Positions 21,798 to 57,899 of a stretch of DNA of 59,013 nt are shown here, piece by piece. Below the pieces are notes generated by a model. The model did not search any database and had not been told where the DNA came from. It saw nothing but the letters and a program-made list of their open reading frames with translations. This stretch comes from a virus. The position numbers were made by a program, and so were the translations under genes. Each line of letters starts with the position of its first letter. The stretch's first letter is position 1. Location: IMG/VR virus record IMGVR_UViG_3300042516_003042, positions 1-59,013 of that record, one strand, 5' to 3'.

Positions 21798-23681
21798 TTA
21801 TAGGCTTATTACACGACCTTTTATGTCGTTATTTGGATATTTTATTTCGAAGATACTAGGGTCCATTGATGGATAGATCACACCATTTCTAGTACTACCC
21901 CCATCTTGTGTAGACATAGGATAAATATTTTCTGAATATCCTAATTCTTTATTTGCTATATTATTTATTGATACTCTAGGTACAGTTTGTACACCATCCA
22001 CTCTATCTAATAAAGTATATATTTTTGATATAATAATAGGTTGATTTATTTGCCATTTTTTAATATCAAAATATTGTTTTAATGTATCAATACATTTTAT
22101 CAATACTTCGTTAGAATTAAATTCCGGTAAAGTTATTATATCAAATTCTATACCGAAATTAATAATGAATGCATCTGTAATATTGATTGCATCTGTTAAC
22201 ATTCTATATGGCGTTAAATAATTCTTTAAGTTTTCTTTAACTGCGTTATTAAGTACTGTTAATGTACCATCTGAATTGTATCCTAAAGTATATAAATTTA
22301 ATGCTAATGGATTGGCAACTGCTTGATTTGTCTGTTGATTAACCTGCACATCTTGTATAACATAAGCTTTTGATATAGCTCCAAATTTCGGAGGCATAGA
22401 ATATGCTCTAATTATATAATCTTGATCGGTAACTGCTCTACTTTGTGCGGCAAAAAATGCTAATGTATTATTTCTAACATCATCTTCTGATTCACCATCT
22501 TTACCTCCTGATGCAGGATTTGGATTAGTACAAGCAACCGACGCCTTAAGTTGATTTACTAAATTTGCATTTAGTCCAGAATCGTTTATATCAAAATTTA
22601 ATTCTATGATCTGATCTAAATCAAAAGCTGGTACGTTGGATTCTATCCCACCACCTGTAGTATACCTAACTGTTAATACTGTATTAGCTGGTGCTAATCC
22701 ATAACTTTTAGTATACATAAAGTTTGATGGATCTATAGGAAAGTCATACATTAACTGTAAACTTGGTAGTCCGGAACCTACATTATCTGGATTAGGTATT
22801 ATTTCTTCATCCAAATCAGCAGATATGCCCGCTCCGAATTGTATCTCTAAAGTCCCATCAGTTCTAAATCTTGTAATAAATCGTCTGGCTGTTTTTCTCA
22901 ATTTCAGCAAATATGGAACTGGTGTATTATATTGTGATAATACCGGGTCATTCTGTACTACATTTGCTATAGTTTCAAATATTGTATCCTGTGCTAAATT
23001 TGGAACTTCATACCAATTATTATTATCAGAATCAATAATGTCTACTAGCTCAATAATATTTTCTGTATTCAATAGTATTCTATCGAAACGTTTAGGATCT
23101 GTAAATGTGTATGTTGCTGTTTGAATATTGCCTGCAACAGCTTTAACTGATTTCTTTAATAGGTAATATTCAATTTGATTAGTTACATCATTAATTTGAT
23201 ATGCACTCACATTTGCATTAGGATCGTTCTCTAAAGTTTTAAAATTAACAGTCTCTAATGTTCTAAATTCTGCAGTAGATGATTTAGATTTAACCACCAT
23301 TCCTGATGATATTGTTAGTGCGTAACTCCAATCAGGAACTACAGTACTTCCGCTTACTACCGATGGTAATAATTGAAATACATCTATATCTACCGAACTT
23401 GCTATCTTATTTTTTACTTTATAACCTAAAGATTGTGCTAATGAGTATAGATTCGTCTTTTCTTCAGCGGTTACTAATAAAGACTCTTTTATTTGCTTAT
23501 CAGTATAAAAACTTAGAACATCACCTACATAAGATGACATTTCCAAAAATAACATACCTGGTGATGATTCATTAAAATCGGTATATGTGTTTGGGAAATA
23601 GTTCTTTGTAAATTCAATTAAGTTTGTTCTTAATTGAGTAAAGTCTTTTCCTAAATATTTTACATCTGTTGTATTAGCCAT
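21798..23681 (-). CDS. Baseplate wedge protein, T4 gp6-like, 627 aa
   Basis: The N-terminal 130 residues have the gp6/baseplate-J signature: KYLGKDFTQLRTNLIEFTK, FNESSPGMLFLEMSSYVGDVLSFYTDKQ and a following LYSLAQSLGYKVKN. Length is close to T4 gp6 (660). In T4 two gp6 copies per wedge form the continuous inner ring of the baseplate; the same role is expected. It shares one base with the gp25-like gene before it, an order conserved in many T4-like phages. Confidence 0.9.
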   Translation of the reverse strand: MANTTDVKYLGKDFTQLRTNLIEFTKNYFPNTYTDFNESSPGMLFLEMSSYVGDVLSFYTDKQIKESLLVTAEEKTNLYSLAQSLGYKVKNKIASSVDIDVFQLLPSVVSGSTVVPDWSYALTISSGMVVKSKSSTAEFRTLETVNFKTLENDPNANVSAYQINDVTNQIEYYLLKKSVKAVAGNIQTATYTFTDPKRFDRILLNTENIIELVDIIDSDNNNWYEVPNLAQDTIFETIANVVQNDPVLSQYNTPVPYLLKLRKTARRFITRFRTDGTLEIQFGAGISADLDEEIIPNPDNVGSGLPSLQLMYDFPIDPSNFMYTKSYGLAPANTVLTVRYTTGGGIESNVPAFDLDQIIELNFDINDSGLNANLVNQLKASVACTNPNPASGGKDGESEDDVRNNTLAFFAAQSRAVTDQDYIIRAYSMPPKFGAISKAYVIQDVQVNQQTNQAVANPLALNLYTLGYNSDGTLTVLNNAVKENLKNYLTPYRMLTDAINITDAFIINFGIEFDIITLPEFNSNEVLIKCIDTLKQYFDIKKWQINQPIIISKIYTLLDRVDGVQTVPRVSINNIANKELGYSENIYPMSTQDGGSTRNGVIYPSMDPSIFEIKYPNNDIKGRVISL

Positions 23682-28050: not shown

Positions 28051-28701
28051 TTATATAATTTGATCAATAACTCCTAACTCAACAGCCTTTTCAGCTGTCA
28101 TATAAAAGTCTTTTCTTGCTACCTTTTCCCAATACTCTTTCTTTTGCGTAGTATATTGTGCTAATAAGTTATACATAATCATATCTAATTCATCAACATG
28201 ATTAGCATTAACTTTTATATCTGTAGCTGTTCCTGAATTTGATGTACTTAATTCATGTACCATAATAAATGTATATTTACTTGCTGCGCGTATACCTGTT
28301 GTACAAGCTAATAATAAAGCTGCAGCTGAACAAGCTCTACCACGAGCTATAATATTGACCTTTACAGATAATGAATGAATATAATCAATAATACCTAATG
28401 CTTCATATACATCACCACCATCTGAATTTAAAACTATTGTTATTGGTGTATCATCATTTTCTGCTCTTTGGCTTAATATTAACCTAATCTTCATTATGAT
28501 ATCAAATAATGTACCTAATATTATATCACCCTGTATAAAAATTACTGATTCTTCTAGACTAACACCATATTCAATCTCGTTATAAATTGACCAATCATCT
28601 GGAACGATAACCGATTCTTCTGTTGATTCGACAGATATAGGTTGATTAGGTTGAATCAACTTGTCTTCATATAATAGGTCCTTCTTATTCATAATTAACA
28701 T
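28051..28701 (-). CDS. clpP: ClpP-like serine protease, 216 aa
   Basis: Typical ClpP/crotonase-fold elements: ITIVLNSDGGDVYEALGIIDYI (90-107), nucleophile Ser125 in RGRACSAAALLLA, and His149 in YTFIMVHELS. A third residue near Asp170-Asp173 would complete the triad. Length matches ClpP. It may act in prohead processing, as ClpP-type proteases do in some phages, or borrow a host Clp ATPase. No head genes are visible beside it, so the role is open. ATGs at codons 1 and 4 are both possible starts. Confidence 0.85.
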   Translation of the reverse strand: MLIMNKKDLLYEDKLIQPNQPISVESTEESVIVPDDWSIYNEIEYGVSLEESVIFIQGDIILGTLFDIIMKIRLILSQRAENDDTPITIVLNSDGGDVYEALGIIDYIHSLSVKVNIIARGRACSAAALLLACTTGIRAASKYTFIMVHELSTSNSGTATDIKVNANHVDELDMIMYNLLAQYTTQKKEYWEKVARKDFYMTAEKAVELGVIDQII

Positions 28702-34468: not shown

Positions 34469-34482
34469 ATTTTGTAATTTAG

Positions 34483-34879
34483 AGGAGGTGCCGGAAATCG
34501 AATCCGGGTCCTGTCCAGTAATCAATACATCTTTTATTTACAGCATAGGATAATTCAAAGTTTAATCTAACTACTTTAGAATTCCAATAAAGAAGGGGCT
34601 GACTATTATGGGAAGCCAACTTATCCACCATCTAATTTTGAGAAAATTAGCAAAACAAACAACAATTTAACCTATATCTAAAGTTGCTGTAAGGTAGTAG
34701 GCTTCTGTTATTACGCTGCTACAAGCGCATCATTTGTTACAAATGCAATAGCATCTTCAAATGTAAATGCAGACAATTCTGTTGCGTTTATTTTTTGGTT
34801 ACAATTTTTGTTCGGTGTAAATAACCATTCACCGAGCTGAAGATATACTATTAGATGTCAGTCAATACCTGTCACCCCC
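34483..34879 (-). ncRNA. ssrA: tmRNA (ssrA), phage-encoded, 397 nt
   Basis: The 5' end GGGGGTGACAGG and the 3' end CACCTCC form the seven-pair acceptor stem with one G-U. The T arm is CCGGA/TCCGG around TTCGATT. Downstream of the 5' tRNA-like part is an H-type pseudoknot (CGGTG/CACCG interlocked with GGTTA/TAACC at about 34797-34837), the PK1 of tmRNAs. Then comes AAAAAATAAAC directly before the resume codon GCA, almost identical to the E. coli element AAAAAATAGTC-GCA. H2 pairing ACATC/GATGT is also present. CCA is not encoded. tmRNA rescues stalled ribosomes and tags the nascent chain. It follows the 119-residue gene by 11 bp and is probably cut from that transcript. Confidence 0.93.
34711..34785 (-). 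other. tmRNA tag reading frame (24 residues)
   Basis: From the resume GCA at 34785 to TAA-TAA the tag starts ATELSAF and ends TNDALVAA. The terminal LVAA matches the hydrophobic-AA degron type recognised by ClpXP. At 24 residues it is longer than the usual 8-15. Confidence 0.85.
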
Positions 34880-35526: not shown

Positions 35527-35551
35527 TTAATTATAAACTATCTTTTTTTAG

Positions 35552-35635
35552 TACCCCGGGCAGGACTCGAACCTGCACGAATTTAACATTCACCGCATCT
35601 TAAGTGCGGCGTGTCTACCATTCCACCACCGGGGC
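35552..35635 (-). tRNA. tRNA-Leu(UAA)
   Basis: Acceptor GCCCCGG/CCGGGGT, D loop AATGGTAG, anticodon arm CCGCA-CTTAAGA-TGCGG with anticodon TAA, long variable arm as expected for leucine, and T arm GCAGG-TTCGAGT-CCTGC. CCA is not encoded. The UUA codon it reads is common in this AT-rich genome. Confidence 0.95.
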
Positions 35636-35850
35636 ATATCCCCACCTTGAGATTACTGGTGAGTAGTTATTTCGGTTTTCTATTTCTTAAAAACCTGCGA
35701 GGCATCCCTCATTAAAACAGCCAAACTACTTGGAGCCTCTGTTACCTAGCTTTATTCCAAAGAGACTGGCGTTTAAGGATGTCCAGTCCAATACCCTACC
35801 AAGTTTAAATGAGACATTGGCAAGTCTGCTGAGTATCTCGTACTCATTGT
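35636..35850. other. Spacer between the two tRNAs, 215 bp, no gene
   Basis: More GC-rich than the surroundings and containing small hairpins (GACTGG/CCAGTC at about 35775; GAGTA/TACTC at 35831-35845). No protein frame or third tRNA found; a small structured RNA or processing region is possible. Confidence 0.4.
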
Positions 35851-35935
35851 AGTCAGGACAGGACTCGAACCTGCATCAGACGTGCTGGATTTTCACCAAG
35901 TATCACGTTGCTTTGACCAATTACGCCACCTGACT
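35851..35935 (-). tRNA. Atypical tRNA with enlarged anticodon loop, isotype undetermined
   Basis: Acceptor AGTCAGG/CCTGACT, D loop with TTGGT and T arm GCAGG-TTCGAGT-CCTGT are all sound. The anticodon stem ACGTG/CACGT is perfect and correctly placed, but encloses 19 nt instead of 7. The loop contains TTGG (possible Pro TGG) and TGAAAA (possible Phe-like). A type II fold with a long variable arm gives worse stems. It may be a pseudo-tRNA, carry a 12-nt insertion, or have an unusual function. Confidence 0.6.
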
Positions 35936-38944: not shown

Positions 38945-39397
38945 TTATTTATTAGTAAATCTAGTAATTAGTGCAGTGTATCCTTCAAATAAAGTCCGTA
39001 CCTGTTTAGGTTTAGCTTTTCTAAATACATAATCCATATAACCATACATACAGTTTAGTCTATCTATACTGTATATTTCATATAGTAACTCTTCCAATCG
39101 ATACTGTATTATCAAATTCCACCCATTATCCCACGCGTTATTCTCATACCATATTATAGCAGCCTTCTGCCCTTTTAGGGTATTAATAGGGAACGGCGGT
39201 AGTGTCTGCCCTATATGACCCAACTCATGGATTAGCATTACTAATCCTGGTACTGTATGCGAATGTCGTTTGGGTATGTATATAATATTAGAAGCAGGAT
39301 CAAACTCAGCTGCTTTACCTTGTATCAATACTGTCACACCATTGCTATTAGCATACTGCAGTACTGCATTCCATATAGATTCAATATTAGTTACCAT
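38945..39397 (-). CDS. HExxH zinc metallopeptidase-like protein, 150 aa
   Basis: The motif VMLIHELGHIGQ gives a thermolysin-type HExxH site (HELGH), in a small protein with a helical C-terminal half (RLEELLYEIYSIDRLNC). It overlaps the VWA gene by 11 bp, so it belongs to the same unit as the VWA protein and the MoxR ATPase. The third zinc ligand may be Glu in YENNAW or LEELLYE. Substrate unknown; it may process a protein remodelled by the ATPase. Confidence 0.75.
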   Translation of the reverse strand: MVTNIESIWNAVLQYANSNGVTVLIQGKAAEFDPASNIIYIPKRHSHTVPGLVMLIHELGHIGQTLPPFPINTLKGQKAAIIWYENNAWDNGWNLIIQYRLEELLYEIYSIDRLNCMYGYMDYVFRKAKPKQVRTLFEGYTALITRFTNK

Positions 39398-41504
39398 ATA
39401 CCGGAGCTAGTAAAGTACTATTTAAACTTTTAGCTAAATCATTAAGATTAACAGGATCTATAAATTGAGAATCTTTACCATACATATGAATAAAGTCTCG
39501 TTTAATCCTAGCATTCCAATAGGTATCTGAACAAACAAAATAACTTAAGATTTTATATCCAGCATTTCTAAAACGCTCAACTTGAGTTCTTGTATGTTCT
39601 AAAGCCATATTACCACTATAGCTTACTCCTCTACCACCAAATGCAGGCTCGCCGTCAGATATATTAATAAAGATACCATCAACATTTCGTTTTAATGCTG
39701 TAGTCATTGTCTTATATATAGCTTCAAAGCAAAGACCTTCTGGCGTCGATCCATTCGCGTCCACCAAATACATTTTGGATGTTAAATGTTGTAAAGTATT
39801 CTTTTTAGAATCATATCCTATAACAATAGCAGGTTTTACTTGGCCATTTAATTCTGTCGTTGTTCTAAAACTTATTTGTACATTCACACCTTTTATCATA
39901 GATGCTGCCTTAGCAATTGCAGCTGCAGACTTTAACGCATTATAGAATGCGGTTCCAGACATACTACCTGATGCATCTATTGAATAATGAATAAATACTG
40001 GGTTGACAGTCTTATGTACTATTTTAGAAAATACAGCCTCGGCACCATACCCTAGATCAGCAATCAATCTTCTATCTATCTTACCATCACGTAACCTAGT
40101 TGTACTTAACGAGTTATCTTCATTTCTAAGCTTAAGTTTACGACCTAGCATTGCACCAAGCATAATACCCTCAGTGACTGCATTAAAATTACGTTGTGCA
40201 CGACTTTTACCATCCGGGTTATAAACACCTCCTGATTTTTTAAATGCAGTATAATCATATGTAAAGATGTTTCCAAACATACTCATAGTAGCTTCTGTGA
40301 TTCGATTTATAACAATACAATCAGTCTTTTTATCAAATACATTTTCTACAGAAACATCTCCAGAATTAATCGTATCTAATTGTTGGAATTCTTTTTTATT
40401 AACTGACTTTTTATTTACATCACCATCCAAAAAATCCTTTTGTTTTTGTATTGCATCCTGCAGTTTCTTTTCCTCCTTCTTATCGGTAGTTGATACTTTA
40501 GATTTTTGTTTTGCTGATTGACTACGTTGTGGTGCCACATCAACTCGATCTAAAGGATTACCATTATCAGCATCACCATCTCCAGAGCCATCCTTAGATT
40601 CATCGGATTCTGATATATCGGAGCCATCCTCTGATTGCCCAGGATCATTTTCTTCTTGCTCAGGATCTTCTGTACTCGAATTAGGATTCATACCTGGAGT
40701 AGTATCCTCATCAATATATAATAATTCATCTTCTATAATTGAAGCTAACTGAAGAGTTATATCAATAGCATCTTCTGTACTTTGAATTCTAGAAATATTA
40801 TATAAATCTAATGTGTCCCATAGCTTTTGTAACTTAGGTAGCGCATTCAAATTTCGATTAGGGTTCATAATATTGCATAGATGAAATATATACCCATCAT
40901 AATCAGGCGTGCACATCTTATTTTTAATCAATGCAGCATCAACCTCTTTATTATTAAAGTATTGTTCATACATAGCTAAATAGTACCCTCGATACCCAGG
41001 CGCAGCATTATACACATAGTTATCTATACGCCTATCCTCTACTATATTTAGAATATATTTCAAACGTTCGCGCCAGTTTATAGAAGCATTAAGTTTTTGC
41101 TCTGCATCTCCAATATGTTTTTCTAGAGCAGAATTTATAAATTTATGAACCTTTGGGTGTGAGCCTTCAACAAGTCGTTTAAGTGCACCAAAGTTAGTTA
41201 ATAAGCAGTGGCTGCCCTCATGTAAAGCTAAGCCCACATTACAGTCAAATAATTTGTCATCCAATTTAGCAGATAACACAACCACCTCACCATCTGTAAA
41301 ACTAGAATCTTTAGTATTATACTTTACAGGAATATCTACCCCGGTAGTAATTCTGACAAAGTTTGCTATCGCCTTTTGGAAGCTGGCTAATGCTATAATA
41401 TCCGTACCTGTACTTTCTAATCTTTCGTAAGTATAGTCGTCTATCCAATATTTGGATGTGCTATAACCGTTTGTAATTGTGGGTAATTTTTTAATCACTT
41501 TCAT
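39387..41504 (-). CDS. VWA-domain protein with HExxH motif (CobT-like partner of a MoxR ATPase), 705 aa
   Basis: The N-terminal region has VGLALHEGSHCLL (HEGSH, about 95-99), a metallopeptidase-type site. The middle is a very acidic, Asp/Ser/Glu-rich linker (about 275-320). The C-terminal ~200 residues are a von Willebrand A domain with MIDAS motif DASGSMSG (near 510), a Thr site and IFINISDGEPAF. Proteins with this layout work with MoxR/CobS-type AAA+ ATPases, here encoded next upstream. T4-like phages of aquatic bacteria often carry such CobS/CobT-like pairs of unknown role. A full promoter module precedes it. Confidence 0.85.
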   Translation of the reverse strand: MKVIKKLPTITNGYSTSKYWIDDYTYERLESTGTDIIALASFQKAIANFVRITTGVDIPVKYNTKDSSFTDGEVVVLSAKLDDKLFDCNVGLALHEGSHCLLTNFGALKRLVEGSHPKVHKFINSALEKHIGDAEQKLNASINWRERLKYILNIVEDRRIDNYVYNAAPGYRGYYLAMYEQYFNNKEVDAALIKNKMCTPDYDGYIFHLCNIMNPNRNLNALPKLQKLWDTLDLYNISRIQSTEDAIDITLQLASIIEDELLYIDEDTTPGMNPNSSTEDPEQEENDPGQSEDGSDISESDESKDGSGDGDADNGNPLDRVDVAPQRSQSAKQKSKVSTTDKKEEKKLQDAIQKQKDFLDGDVNKKSVNKKEFQQLDTINSGDVSVENVFDKKTDCIVINRITEATMSMFGNIFTYDYTAFKKSGGVYNPDGKSRAQRNFNAVTEGIMLGAMLGRKLKLRNEDNSLSTTRLRDGKIDRRLIADLGYGAEAVFSKIVHKTVNPVFIHYSIDASGSMSGTAFYNALKSAAAIAKAASMIKGVNVQISFRTTTELNGQVKPAIVIGYDSKKNTLQHLTSKMYLVDANGSTPEGLCFEAIYKTMTTALKRNVDGIFINISDGEPAFGGRGVSYSGNMALEHTRTQVERFRNAGYKILSYFVCSDTYWNARIKRDFIHMYGKDSQFIDPVNLNDLAKSLNSTLLAPVYGN

Positions 41505-41520
41505 ATTTTAACCTTATACT

Positions 41521-41585
41521 TAAATGTAGGGAAATTGTATCAAAAAACCAAATTTTATCTCAAATTTTAATACTTTTTAAGATAT
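41521..41585 (-). promoter_or_regulatory. Full promoter module B
   Basis: TTTG (41549-41552), 20-nt spacer, TACATTTA (41521-41528), upstream element at about 41565-41585. Drives the VWA and metallopeptidase genes separately from the ATPase. Confidence 0.8.
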
Positions 41586-41644
41586 TAAACTTTTTTATTA
41601 TATGGATACTCGACGCAGTTGTTGAGTTATAGATATCATAGAAA

Positions 41645-41684
41645 CCCGGGCCGGATAGTATATTACTACTACCCAATGCCCAGG
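41645..41684 (-). terminator. Long hairpin after the MoxR gene, likely terminator
   Basis: On the minus strand CCTGGGC and GGGTAGT pair with ACTATCC and GCCCGGG (14 pairs, two of them G-U, one small internal loop). The tract after it (TTTCT) is weak, so termination or RNA protection are both possible. Confidence 0.55.
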
Positions 41685-41699
41685 ACCTATATAACAATA

Positions 41700-42872
41700 T
41701 TAAAATGGATTAGCGTCATTAGTATCAAATAACTTTTTATCTGTAGTAGTGATATACTTTTGAACCAATTGCTTCATATAAGTTCTTTCAGACTCTACAC
41801 CACCATCCTCAGAATAGAAAGGATAAATGGCCACCTCAGCAATTTCTTGCAAATTAAATCCGTCTACTAATAGTGAGCCCATCTCAACAGTAGCACGAGT
41901 CGATAAGCTAGTAGAAATTCTAGGATTTTCAGACCGCACAGTTTTTCTAGTAATGTCTGCAATCTCTGCAATAGTACTTACAGTACCTTTATCAGCAGTC
42001 GGATATAACATTGTCAATAAAGTAGTTTCTTCTTCTTTATTAAGCACATCCATTTCAACAGTAATAAACCTATCTAGTAATGCTCGGTCCATAGTTCTAG
42101 TAGAAGTATAGTCATTACCAATATTAGCAGTCGCAATGAAAGATACATTATTAGCAACCTTAATTGTAGGAGAGTTATCTTTCTCATCTAAGCGCAAATA
42201 TTTTTGGTTAGGATCTAGCACAGTCATTAAAATATTCCAAGCTTCAGGATGCGCTCTAGAAATCTCATCTAAAAGTATAACTGCATTTTCTGTCTGGATA
42301 GCTGACACAAATAATGATTGAGCAAAATAGGTACCTTCATCTTTCTTGAAGTGTGTATTACCGATTAAGGTAGATCTAGGATCTTGTGTTGAGCCTAAGT
42401 TAAAATAGTAGAAAGGTCGCTGTAAAGACTCAACTAAATGCTTAACCGCCATAGTCTTGCCAGTACCACTCGGTCCCGTCATCATAATATTTTTACCTCG
42501 CATAACTGCTCGAACTAGATATTTCCATTTCAAGTCTGTCATAAAAAAATGCTTAGGTCTAAGGTTAGCAGATTCCTTATGGATAAACTCAACTACATTA
42601 GTAACCTCAGCAGAGTCCACTTTATTAGTAGCTTTCAATTCCATCACTACAGGCTCTTCGTAGGTTACCTCAGGTGCAGTATTAGTTATTGGCTGCGCAG
42701 CATCTGTTGATAATCGCCAGTTGTCACCATTACCAATAATACCACAACCTAAGGCGCGTGCCTCCAATCTAAGTTTCTGCGGGACTATTTTACTAATATC
42801 ATTTCCTTTAGCGTCATACGCTTTTACGAATCTTCCTTCTTGTACTACAGTACAAATAATTTCTTGTGTCAT
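41700..42872 (-). CDS. MoxR/CobS-type AAA+ ATPase, 390 aa
   Basis: Walker A GPSGTGKT (133-140), Walker B AVILLDEISRA (about 192-202), sensor 1 SFIATANIGNDYTSTR and arginine-finger region RALLDRFITVEMD are all clear. The N-terminal 100 residues hold an unassigned small domain (EGRFVKAYDAKGNDISKIVP). These ATPases remodel protein complexes with VWA-domain partners; in cobalt chelatases they load metal, but phage copies lack the chelatase subunit, so a chaperone-like role is more likely. It has its own core promoter and a hairpin after the stop. Confidence 0.88.
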   Translation of the reverse strand: MTQEIICTVVQEGRFVKAYDAKGNDISKIVPQKLRLEARALGCGIIGNGDNWRLSTDAAQPITNTAPEVTYEEPVVMELKATNKVDSAEVTNVVEFIHKESANLRPKHFFMTDLKWKYLVRAVMRGKNIMMTGPSGTGKTMAVKHLVESLQRPFYYFNLGSTQDPRSTLIGNTHFKKDEGTYFAQSLFVSAIQTENAVILLDEISRAHPEAWNILMTVLDPNQKYLRLDEKDNSPTIKVANNVSFIATANIGNDYTSTRTMDRALLDRFITVEMDVLNKEEETTLLTMLYPTADKGTVSTIAEIADITRKTVRSENPRISTSLSTRATVEMGSLLVDGFNLQEIAEVAIYPFYSEDGGVESERTYMKQLVQKYITTTDKKLFDTNDANPF

Positions 42873-56168: not shown

Positions 56169-56492
56169 TTATTCTGCTGTAGGGACAGGGCCGAACTTAT
56201 TCTCGACATCTTGCCCTTTTGAAACCAATAATACAAAGTTATATATTGGTATTAATACAAACCAACCACTTTTACCTGTATCATGGATTCTTCTAATTGC
56301 TACTGCATATCCTGGAACTAGTAGACCAAGCGTATACAATGTAGACAATGCTGGTAGACCTATGATTGCTGTTACGAACCCAACAGCAAACGCTATTAAA
56401 AAGTTAAATAATACAAAGTACCAATATTCAGATCTGGTAGCTCTGCCATCGAAGTTTGCATAATTTTGTAATGCTTTTAAGTAATATTTCAT
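56169..56492 (-). CDS. DUF805 membrane protein, 107 aa
   Basis: FDGRATRSEYWYFVLFNFL, then membrane helices and VPGYAVAIRRIHDTGKSGW are the DUF805 (YhaH/YiaA) signature. These are small inner-membrane proteins of unknown function common in bacterial genomes and rare in phages. Full length for the family. It ends at a good terminator and stands as a single-gene unit. Confidence 0.9.
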   Translation of the reverse strand: MKYYLKALQNYANFDGRATRSEYWYFVLFNFLIAFAVGFVTAIIGLPALSTLYTLGLLVPGYAVAIRRIHDTGKSGWFVLIPIYNFVLLVSKGQDVENKFGPVPTAE

Positions 56493-56614
56493 ACGATTTT
56501 ATTTGTCCTACTCTTAAGGATTTTCAGTTACTCCCGTTTATTAAATAGTTTCTGCTCTATTAATACATTAATATAAGAAATAAAGATTAAATTACCAATA
56601 AATTTTTAATATTT
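56493..56614. promoter_or_regulatory. Divergent intergenic region
   Basis: Separates the leftward DUF805 gene from the only rightward gene. On the plus strand TATTTTTG (TAnnTTTG) occurs just before the TTG start at 56615, too close to serve a start there unless the leader is absent. Confidence 0.35.
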
Positions 56615-57109
56615 TTGAACATAAAGTTTTTACTATTTATACTTATCTGTATAACCTATTTTATGTCACCATTACTTCTATCATTTCTCCTAGCATTCAA
56701 TACAAATACTGATTCGTTAACAACACATCAATTTAGGTTATGGCAAAAGGTATATGACAATAAAAGACTTCATGTAATTAATCATAATATAACTGTGTCT
56801 GGTGTTATACATCATATTGAAAATTCATTTGATGGTGATATTCATATAAAATTAAAGTTAGATTCGGTTAGTTCTCAAAAGGTATATTTAGTTAATAAAA
56901 ATTACACCAAACAAGATTCATGCTTAGTAGCAGAGATAGTTTGTGGACATAGTACAATATTTCCTATCTGCCATATGTTTGACAATCCTATTCTAGTACC
57001 TAAGAAGGGGGATAAAGTTATAGTTACTGGTGCATTTGTTTATGACAAAAGACATAACTGGACTGAGATTCACCCTGTATATAATTTGGAAATTCTGCCT
57101 ATTAAATAG
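56615..57109 (+). CDS. Membrane-anchored or exported protein, OB-fold-like, 164 aa
   Basis: The only rightward gene. Reading from TTG 56615, it begins with a hydrophobic helix (FLLFILICITYFMSPLLLSF), then a folded part with DGDIHIKLKLDSVSSQKVYL, a Cys pair (EIVCGHSTIFPICHM) and the end KKGDKVIVTGAFVYDKRHNW, which looks like the last strands of an OB fold. ATG 56663 is an alternative start inside the helix. Its end overlaps the recombinase stop by 8 bp, tail to tail. Isolated, opposite orientation suggests acquisition as a unit or silent carriage. Confidence 0.72.
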   Translation: MNIKFLLFILICITYFMSPLLLSFLLAFNTNTDSLTTHQFRLWQKVYDNKRLHVINHNITVSGVIHHIENSFDGDIHIKLKLDSVSSQKVYLVNKNYTKQDSCLVAEIVCGHSTIFPICHMFDNPILVPKKGDKVIVTGAFVYDKRHNWTEIHPVYNLEILPIK

Positions 57110-57899
57110 GTAAATTAACAGAAGATAATAATTGATTAGATACATGAGTATATATCTCAGTAGTTTTCGATGATGAATGTCCTGCAATCTTTTGTATTAT
57201 TCGTAAATCAGTTCCGCTTTCTAATAAGTTAGTAAATGATGAATGTCGCAAGGTATGGATTGATGATGTATTGTCAATATATTTCTTATATATTTTCTGG
57301 CAGCTACCTATTGAATATTGGTTTGTAAATTGACCATTAAAGAGGTATTCAATTGGTTTATATTCTTTGAAATAATCTCTTAACAGATTAAGTACATTTG
57401 GCGAAAGAGGAACTATTCTGTCTTTTCTACCTTTTGCATTTTTGATATGAATAAGCATTCTTTTTGAATCAATATCTTCAATTTTTAGGTTAACAATTTC
57501 AGATACTCTTAATCCAACTGAATAAGTTAGGGTAAGAATTGCTTTGTGTTTAAGATTTTCAATTTGATTTAGTTTTTGTTTTATAAACTCACCATCAATC
57601 ACTCTGGGTAATTTCTTTTCTGATTTTGGTCTCTCTATTTTCGTTAAGTGTATATCTTTTTTATTTAAAATATATTTAGCAAAAAGTTTTAGAGCACCTA
57701 TATATTGGTTTTGTTGGCTGCATGATGTGTAAGGATATTTTTCAAGAAACGATACTATTTGTTGTGTTCTAATTTGGTATGGGTCTTTTATCCCACCATA
57801 TTCAATAAAATTTTTTAAATATGATGTATATAAATTTATACTACTCTGAGAATAGTTTTTATATCTTAATTTTTCTTGAAAATTTTTAAGAACTTGCAT
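57102..57899 (-). CDS. Tyrosine recombinase (XerC/D-type integrase), 265 aa
   Basis: An N-terminal SAM-like core-binding domain (LRYKNYSQSSINLYTSYLKN) and a catalytic domain with a complete active site: Arg131 (GLRVSEI), Lys156 region (NAKGRKDR), His215 and Arg218 (HTLRHS), His241 (GHSS) and Tyr250 (EIYTHV). It resembles integron integrases in the N-terminus but lacks the extra helix insertion that marks IntI, and is shorter (265 against about 320-340). It lies at the end of cassette array 2, its start 2 nt after the array end region, and reads in the same direction as the cassette genes. It may move the cassettes, resolve the genome or integrate the phage. Confidence 0.9.
   Translation of the reverse strand: MQVLKNFQEKLRYKNYSQSSINLYTSYLKNFIEYGGIKDPYQIRTQQIVSFLEKYPYTSCSQQNQYIGALKLFAKYILNKKDIHLTKIERPKSEKKLPRVIDGEFIKQKLNQIENLKHKAILTLTYSVGLRVSEIVNLKIEDIDSKRMLIHIKNAKGRKDRIVPLSPNVLNLLRDYFKEYKPIEYLFNGQFTNQYSIGSCQKIYKKYIDNTSSIHTLRHSSFTNLLESGTDLRIIQKIAGHSSSKTTEIYTHVSNQLLSSVNLPI

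Follow-up and report, generated by a model that had tools for sequence, protein, structure and literature searches.

A phage-encoded tmRNA with a 24-residue tag kept among related phages

In its general role tmRNA frees stuck ribosomes and labels unfinished proteins, and a phage copy would do the same. The G3:U70 pair is read by alanyl-tRNA synthetase; many tmRNAs have no encoded CCA, but A73 is usual. The tag of mycobacteriophage Bxz1 is long, at about 25 residues. Phage tmRNAs are already known, with 79 unique ones in a 2025 database, and the modal tmRNA tag has 10 residues (PMC11915505). The tags of Bacillus phage G (AKLNITNNELQVA, 13 residues) and Jay2Jay (ANSNVAFALAA, 11 residues) are short and unrelated to the tag described here, and huge phages have been reported with both tmRNA and SmpB (PMC7162821). 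Long tags with an N-terminal extension occur in the ssrA of Mycoplasma and Mesoplasma; in Mycoplasma, Lon replaces ClpXP as the reader of the extended tag, according to the passage of PMC9097571 that cites Gur and Sauer (2008), and the extended tag and Lon form an orthogonal system (PMC3439342). In E. coli, setting of the frame requires that the nucleotides at -4 and -5 of the resume codon be A and U, respectively (PMC2481249). A small stem at the E. coli resume codon, the hairpin U88-A100, is thought to protect that codon (PMC8363625), and helix m has been reported in the same region (PMC1168896). In the open-access literature, as distinct from subscription papers, we found no report of phage lineages that conserve a long tag of their own.

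The window analyzed here is the whole of a viral record of 59,013 nucleotides (IMG/VR record IMGVR_UViG_3300042516_003042), itself a 59-kb fragment, for which a preliminary description had proposed a tmRNA gene at 34483-34879 with a tag about twice the usual length. At 34482-34879 of the minus strand, ARAGORN called a one-piece tmRNA whose tag, ATELSAFTFEDAIAFVTNDALVAA, has 24 residues and is followed by two UAA stops. Using laxer filters, cmscan aligned positions 1-374 of the 374 positions of the Rfam tmRNA model RF00023 to 34480-34879 with a score of 44.2 bits (E-values of 6e-18 and 1.5e-15), which is 2.8 bits below the gathering score of 47, and under Rfam's own filters no tmRNA passed in a scan of the whole window. 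The RF00023 cut-off alone is not decisive, because only 9 of 14 control genomes pass it, the rest being archaea or organisms whose tmRNA has a non-standard form. The ARAGORN call and the full-length RF00023 match, obtained in the Infernal comparison that the preliminary description had proposed, confirm the gene, and its tag is about 2.4 times the usual length.

The acceptor stem, the T arm, PK1 and the A-rich element before GCA, all named in the preliminary description, were each found as claimed (Table 1). The PK1 score of the window was reached by 4 of 200 dinucleotide shuffles. The same test applied sequence by sequence was not significant in the relatives, where the support for PK1 comes from compensated stems, the first stem reading AGUGUU/AACACU, AGUGG/CCACU or AGGCG/CGCCU. 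From 29 relatives RNAalifold recovered the acceptor, H2 and T stems, where double changes affect both sides of the pairing. Each of the first two T-arm pairs is doubly changed in 13 of the 29 sequences and the inner acceptor pairs covary, while G3:U70 is constant in all 29 family members, window included. In the leader AAAAAAUAAAC the nucleotides at -4 and -5 relative to GCA are A and U, as in the E. coli rule, and the tag ends in -LVAA before UAA UAA, with a similar type of end in nearly all relatives. The locus thus resembles the standard bacterial ssrA (RF00023) in its acceptor and T arms with G3:U70, H2, PK1, A-rich leader with A-4, resume codon, tag frame, tandem stops and hydrophobic-Ala-Ala tag end. 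It differs from it in a score below the cut-off, a tag of 24 residues against a mode of 10, a discriminator U, the lack of an encoded CCA, and a hairpin in the first tag codons. With the tmRNAs of Bacillus phage G, Bxz1, the Streptomyces BE phages and huge phages it shares its location in a large tailed phage.

Table 1. Features of the tmRNA gene and of its neighborhood in the window
Feature	Position	Strand	Basis or remark
One-piece tmRNA gene, G1 to discriminator base	34483..34879	-	ARAGORN; full-length RF00023 match
Acceptor stem, 5' half GGGGGUG	34873..34879	-	pairs with 34484-34490
PK1, stems UCGGUG/CACCGA and UGGUUAU/GUAACCA	34796..34835	-	shuffle test; compensated stems in relatives
A-rich leader AAAAAAUAAAC preceding resume codon	34786..34796	-	sequence
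Tag reading frame, 24 codons, ATELSAFTFEDAIAFVTNDALVAA, resume codon GCA	34714..34785	-	ARAGORN; homologous frames in phages
In-frame hairpin HP1, CAGA-AUUG-UCUG, 1 nt past resume codon	34770..34781	-	RNAalifold; covariation
Possible second in-frame hairpin, AUGC-UAUU-GCAU	34743..34754	-	weaker; kept in part of family
Tandem stops UAA UAA	34708..34713	-	sequence
PK2-like region, ACCU/AGGU and CAAC/GUUG	34660..34695	-	read by eye
8-bp hairpin CUAAUUUU-CUC-AAAAUUAG, PK3 position	34632..34650	-	MFE and centroid folds
PK4-like region, GGCU/AGCC and UUCC/GGAA	34582..34617	-	read by eye
T arm CCGGA-UUCGAUU-UCCGG, 17 nt	34491..34507	-	RF00023 match; RNAalifold on relatives
Acceptor stem, 3' half CACCUCC	34484..34490	-	RF00023 match; RNAalifold
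Discriminator base U, CCA unencoded, tail UCUA	34483..34483	-	sequence
Baseplate wedge protein, used to place phage	21798..23681	-	identity to named phages
ClpP-type protease	28051..28701	-	Pfam PF00574, 1.8e-30
Downstream gene, NAD-dependent epimerase-like, 177 aa	33796..34329	-	Pfam Epimerase, 9.9e-10
Upstream gene, 119 aa	34891..35250	-	stop codon 11 nt from tmRNA 5' end
tRNA-Leu(UAA)	35551..35635	-	ARAGORN; cmscan
tRNA-like gene, oversized anticodon loop	35850..35935	-	Rfam tRNA, 43 bits

The 3' end of the window tmRNA reads CACCUCC-UCUA, with U73 rather than A as the discriminator and an encoded tail other than ACCA. In a discriminator-blind pattern survey, A73 was found in 117/117 among the matches listed. 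The UCUA tail is shared with one other long-tag phage tmRNA only (L245, positions 1462-1836; 27 residues), which ends in CUCC-UCUA and whose contig also encodes ClpP. We treated U73 as an anomaly in a typical feature and not as a defining failure of tmRNA membership. It could weaken alanylation, and an assembly error may lie behind it, since near-identical records may be missing from the collections. The discriminator U of the window and of L245, set against the uniform A of the survey, and the covariance score just under the cut-off would both suit a decoy or decaying gene, that is, a poorly charged tmRNA tying up SmpB or ribosomes in the manner of phage DS6A, whose TLD-only RNA inhibits the host tmRNA (PMC4131195). 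We consider this very improbable, as the full mRNA-like domain, the resume rule, the frame and the tandem stops are intact, and in the relatives A73 and G3:U70 are present and purifying selection acts on the tag.

The tag of the window belongs to a family. A tag-blind pattern for the 5' end of tmRNA, which was used first, returned viral tags including DVELSTWTFDDVMAFVGADYAVAA and ANVELSTMTFGDAMAWMNSFDYAVAA, which are clearly akin to that of the window. When the first half of the tag was turned into a degenerate DNA pattern, this matched 63 viral stretches, nearly all of them ARAGORN tmRNAs, and a pattern on the other half matched 103, overlapping the first set in part; among the tags of this second set are AEELSSFTFEDAMAFVGADYAVAA, the nearest to that of the window, and GEEKSSFTWEDAMSFIGADYAVAA. 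The union of the tag searches is 135 loci, the window's own counted, and IMG/VR has about 130 phage loci with tmRNAs that bear homologous tags of 24-28 residues, with the consensus [AD]xELSxxTFEDAMAFVGADYAVAA. Many contigs of the family (up to 245 kb) share the baseplate protein of the window and are therefore phages. Neither tblastn with the tag peptide nor blastn with the tmRNA sequence found an isolated phage that has the window tag, although masking may affect queries that are short and of low complexity. In one phage record (L350, positions 1501-1861) ARAGORN missed the tmRNA, perhaps owing to the length of its tag, which we read by hand as the 34 residues ANKNIISQDSRNFANQVEAKIISLVRNEYVAIAA; this 197-kb phage is a closer relative of the window, with 57% identity in the wedge protein.

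Outside phages, the first-half tag pattern had two matches in 257 Gb of genomes from bacteria and archaea (84,980 species), neither of them in a tmRNA. The preliminary description had made its reading depend on PK1 and the tag frame being kept in related phages; both are conserved there, along with the other parts of the tmRNA, and the tag pattern occurs in no searched bacterial tmRNA. These results bear on the possibility of plain capture, in which the host tmRNA was already long-tagged and the tag has no phage-specific role. Host-like phage tags do exist, as in Jay2Jay and in the tag GNTSYAMAA, and tags of the bacterial sample reach 18 residues, plus one doubtful call of 24. Against capture stand the negative search of the 84,980 species and a survey by the tRNA-like 3' end, which gave at least 46 ARAGORN tmRNAs with 38 distinct tags among the matches listed. 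Tags of at least 18 residues make up 19 of these 38 phage tags and 2 of 30 in the bacterial sample (p = 2e-5 for length), proportions that are rough, the phage survey possibly including host fragments and the bacterial control consisting of 30 tmRNAs, nearly all from Chloroflexota, plus one Terriglobales genome. Capture without a phage-specific role is thus improbable in our judgement, though somewhat less so than a decoy.

The long-tag phage families apart from that of the window have tags of 18-34 residues, among them GNTNFWSLVNESVNAPVTEELLAA, GKTLAKLATLGLVREESAVTVA, ANAQIEANMNKVFSLLREEVAVAA and VKSQSERVEEGASIIAMAFASELALAA, and in nearly all of them the tag ends in hydrophobic-Ala-Ala or something similar. 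The idea that the tag extensions form amphipathic helices was rejected, their hydrophobic moments being mostly no better than those of shuffles.

To describe selection on the tag, we used 29 divergent family members. Entropy at the three codon positions of the tag was 0.22, 0.29 and 0.73; over the whole tag it was 0.47. The two ends of the tRNA-like domain gave 0.58 and 0.54 and the region past the tag 1.19, so that the tag is better conserved than most of the RNA; the one lower value was that of the 13-nt leader ahead of the resume codon (0.41). The pooled pN/pS of the tag was 0.29, and all tag values are biased toward conservation at those residues that the tag searches had fixed. The first four family members were found with no tag in the search pattern. 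RNAalifold, unprompted, placed a hairpin (HP1) in the first tag codons. The covariation of HP1 was 0.199 versus 0.049 in shuffles, reached in 0/500 of them (40 distinct sequences; the shuffles ignore relatedness), and slid controls were also lower, at 0.009-0.093. Its stem is CAGA/UCUG in the window and GUAGA/UCUAC, GAAGA/UCUUC or GUUGA/UCAAC elsewhere in the family, and it is retained with a shifted register in UGAC/GUCA and GACAA/UUGUC. Conservation of the tag region is thus of two kinds, a codon-position signature at the level of the peptide and a compensated hairpin at that of the RNA.

HP1 resembles the E. coli hairpin as a small stem at the resume codon. The E. coli hairpin encloses that codon, whereas HP1, which has covariation in its support, is located inside the tag codons and, in the window and the relatives nearest to it, begins 0-1 nt past the resume codon. 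The tag could be long for the sake of such RNA structure, with the frame stretched through resume-codon hairpins and only the last residues mattering as a degron. In favor of this are the finding of HP1 in all 55 distinct tag DNAs, its covariation beyond shuffles, and the E. coli hairpin in the same region. HP1 also accounts for paired residue changes in the tag, from V..T to E..S, which covary because of its pairing. Some other long-tag families (L196, L384 and L423) likewise have a strong in-frame hairpin, with P of 0.005-0.01 under synonymous codons. On the other side, residues outside HP1 (TF-D) keep their amino acid while third positions vary, ACN for example occurring with all four letters; HP1 is not unlikely given the peptide (P of about 0.27 per sequence for the commonest tags in a synonymous-codon test); and the long tags of three further families (L404, L427 and L458) have no notable hairpin. 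We regard RNA structure as the sole reason for the length as possible, but not the likelier case. The in-frame hairpins of L382 and L423 have 6 and 8 bp (P of 0.02 and 0.007, synonymous codons) and are unrelated in sequence to that of the window.

We favor the reading that the locus encodes a tmRNA which most likely performs trans-translation in a Bacteroidota host and adds its 24-residue tag, and we hold this to be probable. The host alanyl-tRNA synthetase would charge the RNA through G3:U70, host SmpB and EF-Tu would deliver it to stalled ribosomes, and translation would resume at GCA to add 24 residues ending in -LVAA before the tandem stops. On this reading the RNA is charged and active. 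Going by what ClpXP is known to recognize, -LVAA should still be a working degron, and the C-terminal hydrophobic-Ala-Ala end would be one of the ClpXP type. HP1 probably shields and presents the resume codon, by analogy with what has been proposed for the E. coli hairpin. The phage-specific N-terminal extension may switch or widen the protease or adaptor that takes the tagged proteins, by analogy with the Mycoplasma tag and Lon. The likeness to the Mycoplasma and Mesoplasma tags is in length and N-terminal extension; the sequences are unrelated, and the protease switch is established there and hypothetical here, where host ClpXP is presumably present. The extension may serve protease re-routing, RNA structure, or both.

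The conserved long tag suggests that the label has been adapted by the phages to some end of theirs. As the preliminary description suggested, a phage copy could also sustain ribosome rescue while host RNA is being lost. A broader proposal is that a second tagging code operates in large Bacteroidota phages, a conserved phage-specific peptide of 24-28 residues dual-coded with a hairpin, which sends proteins to a protease or fate other than that of the short host tag and evolved independently in several lineages; we put this forward tentatively and find it somewhat doubtful. A tag kept across diverging phages and unseen in the searched bacteria makes the reason for a phage tmRNA testable. If the extension re-routes proteins, these phages would edit host quality control; if it is RNA structure only, the family would offer a natural covarying helix set by the resume codon for studying how tmRNA sets its frame.

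Partner genes were searched for in the same records. SmpB (PF01668) was found neither in the window nor in 26 related family records, the window and most of the records being fragments, so that host SmpB must serve; the huge phages differ in that SmpB is reported for them. Among the records searched, the GNTNFWSL phages of 270 kb are the only ones with SmpB, and they encode ClpP as well. The 270-kb records L338-L341 (G041-G044), with the tag GNTNFWSLVNESVNAPVTEELLAA, carry tmRNA, SmpB and ClpP, a nearly self-sufficient set for trans-translation. SspB and Lon were found in 0/33 records; this lack of a phage adaptor or protease to match the tag counts against the favored reading, and degradation of the Mycoplasma type would call for host Lon. 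Conserved neighbor genes were considered as possible adaptors and rejected, none being common to independent lineages.

The preliminary description had also pointed to tRNA genes and a ClpP-like protease in the same region and hinted at a link between ClpP and the tmRNA. One clean tRNA, tRNA-Leu(UAA), is present, the second is odd, and ClpP lies about 6 kb away. The hinted link did not hold. ClpP is encoded close to the baseplate genes of the relative Mel-JY01, which has no tmRNA, and eight family contigs of 164-245 kb, most of the large ones, have the tmRNA and no ClpP. ClpP was therefore rejected as a dedicated partner of the tmRNA and is better described as a gene of the lineage. The odd tRNA (35850-35935) is read by ARAGORN only as tRNA-Gly(UCC) with a 12-nt loop insertion, and could be degraded or unusual.

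The baseplate wedge protein of the window shares 52% identity with its counterpart in Microcystis phage Mel-JY01 (190 kb) and 41% with the one in Flavobacterium phage Immuto (160 kb); no full tmRNA was found in either phage. Scarce Shine-Dalgarno cores together with upstream enrichment of A are the start-site habit of Bacteroidota. The Shine-Dalgarno core precedes 2 of 50 window genes, compared to 8.7% of random 16-mers, and A is enriched at -12/-11; this start-site context points to a Bacteroidota host. The 11-nt gap to the stop codon of the upstream gene makes co-transcription likely, with the tmRNA probably released by cleavage of a longer transcript.

Three further loci of the window were recorded. 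CobT-like (VWA) and CobS/MoxR-like AAA genes lie side by side at 39387-42872 (-), with no cobalamin pathway among the genes checked, and probably form an AAA-VWA pair that has a different function in the phage. At 57102-57899 (-) there is a gene for a tyrosine recombinase (integrase, Pfam 6e-34), in a phage that otherwise has the look of a large myovirus of lytic type. A DUF805 RNA motif (56501-56565, -; 66 bits) lies directly upstream of a DUF805 gene (56169-56492, -), and the phage thus carries a cis-regulatory RNA with its cognate gene.
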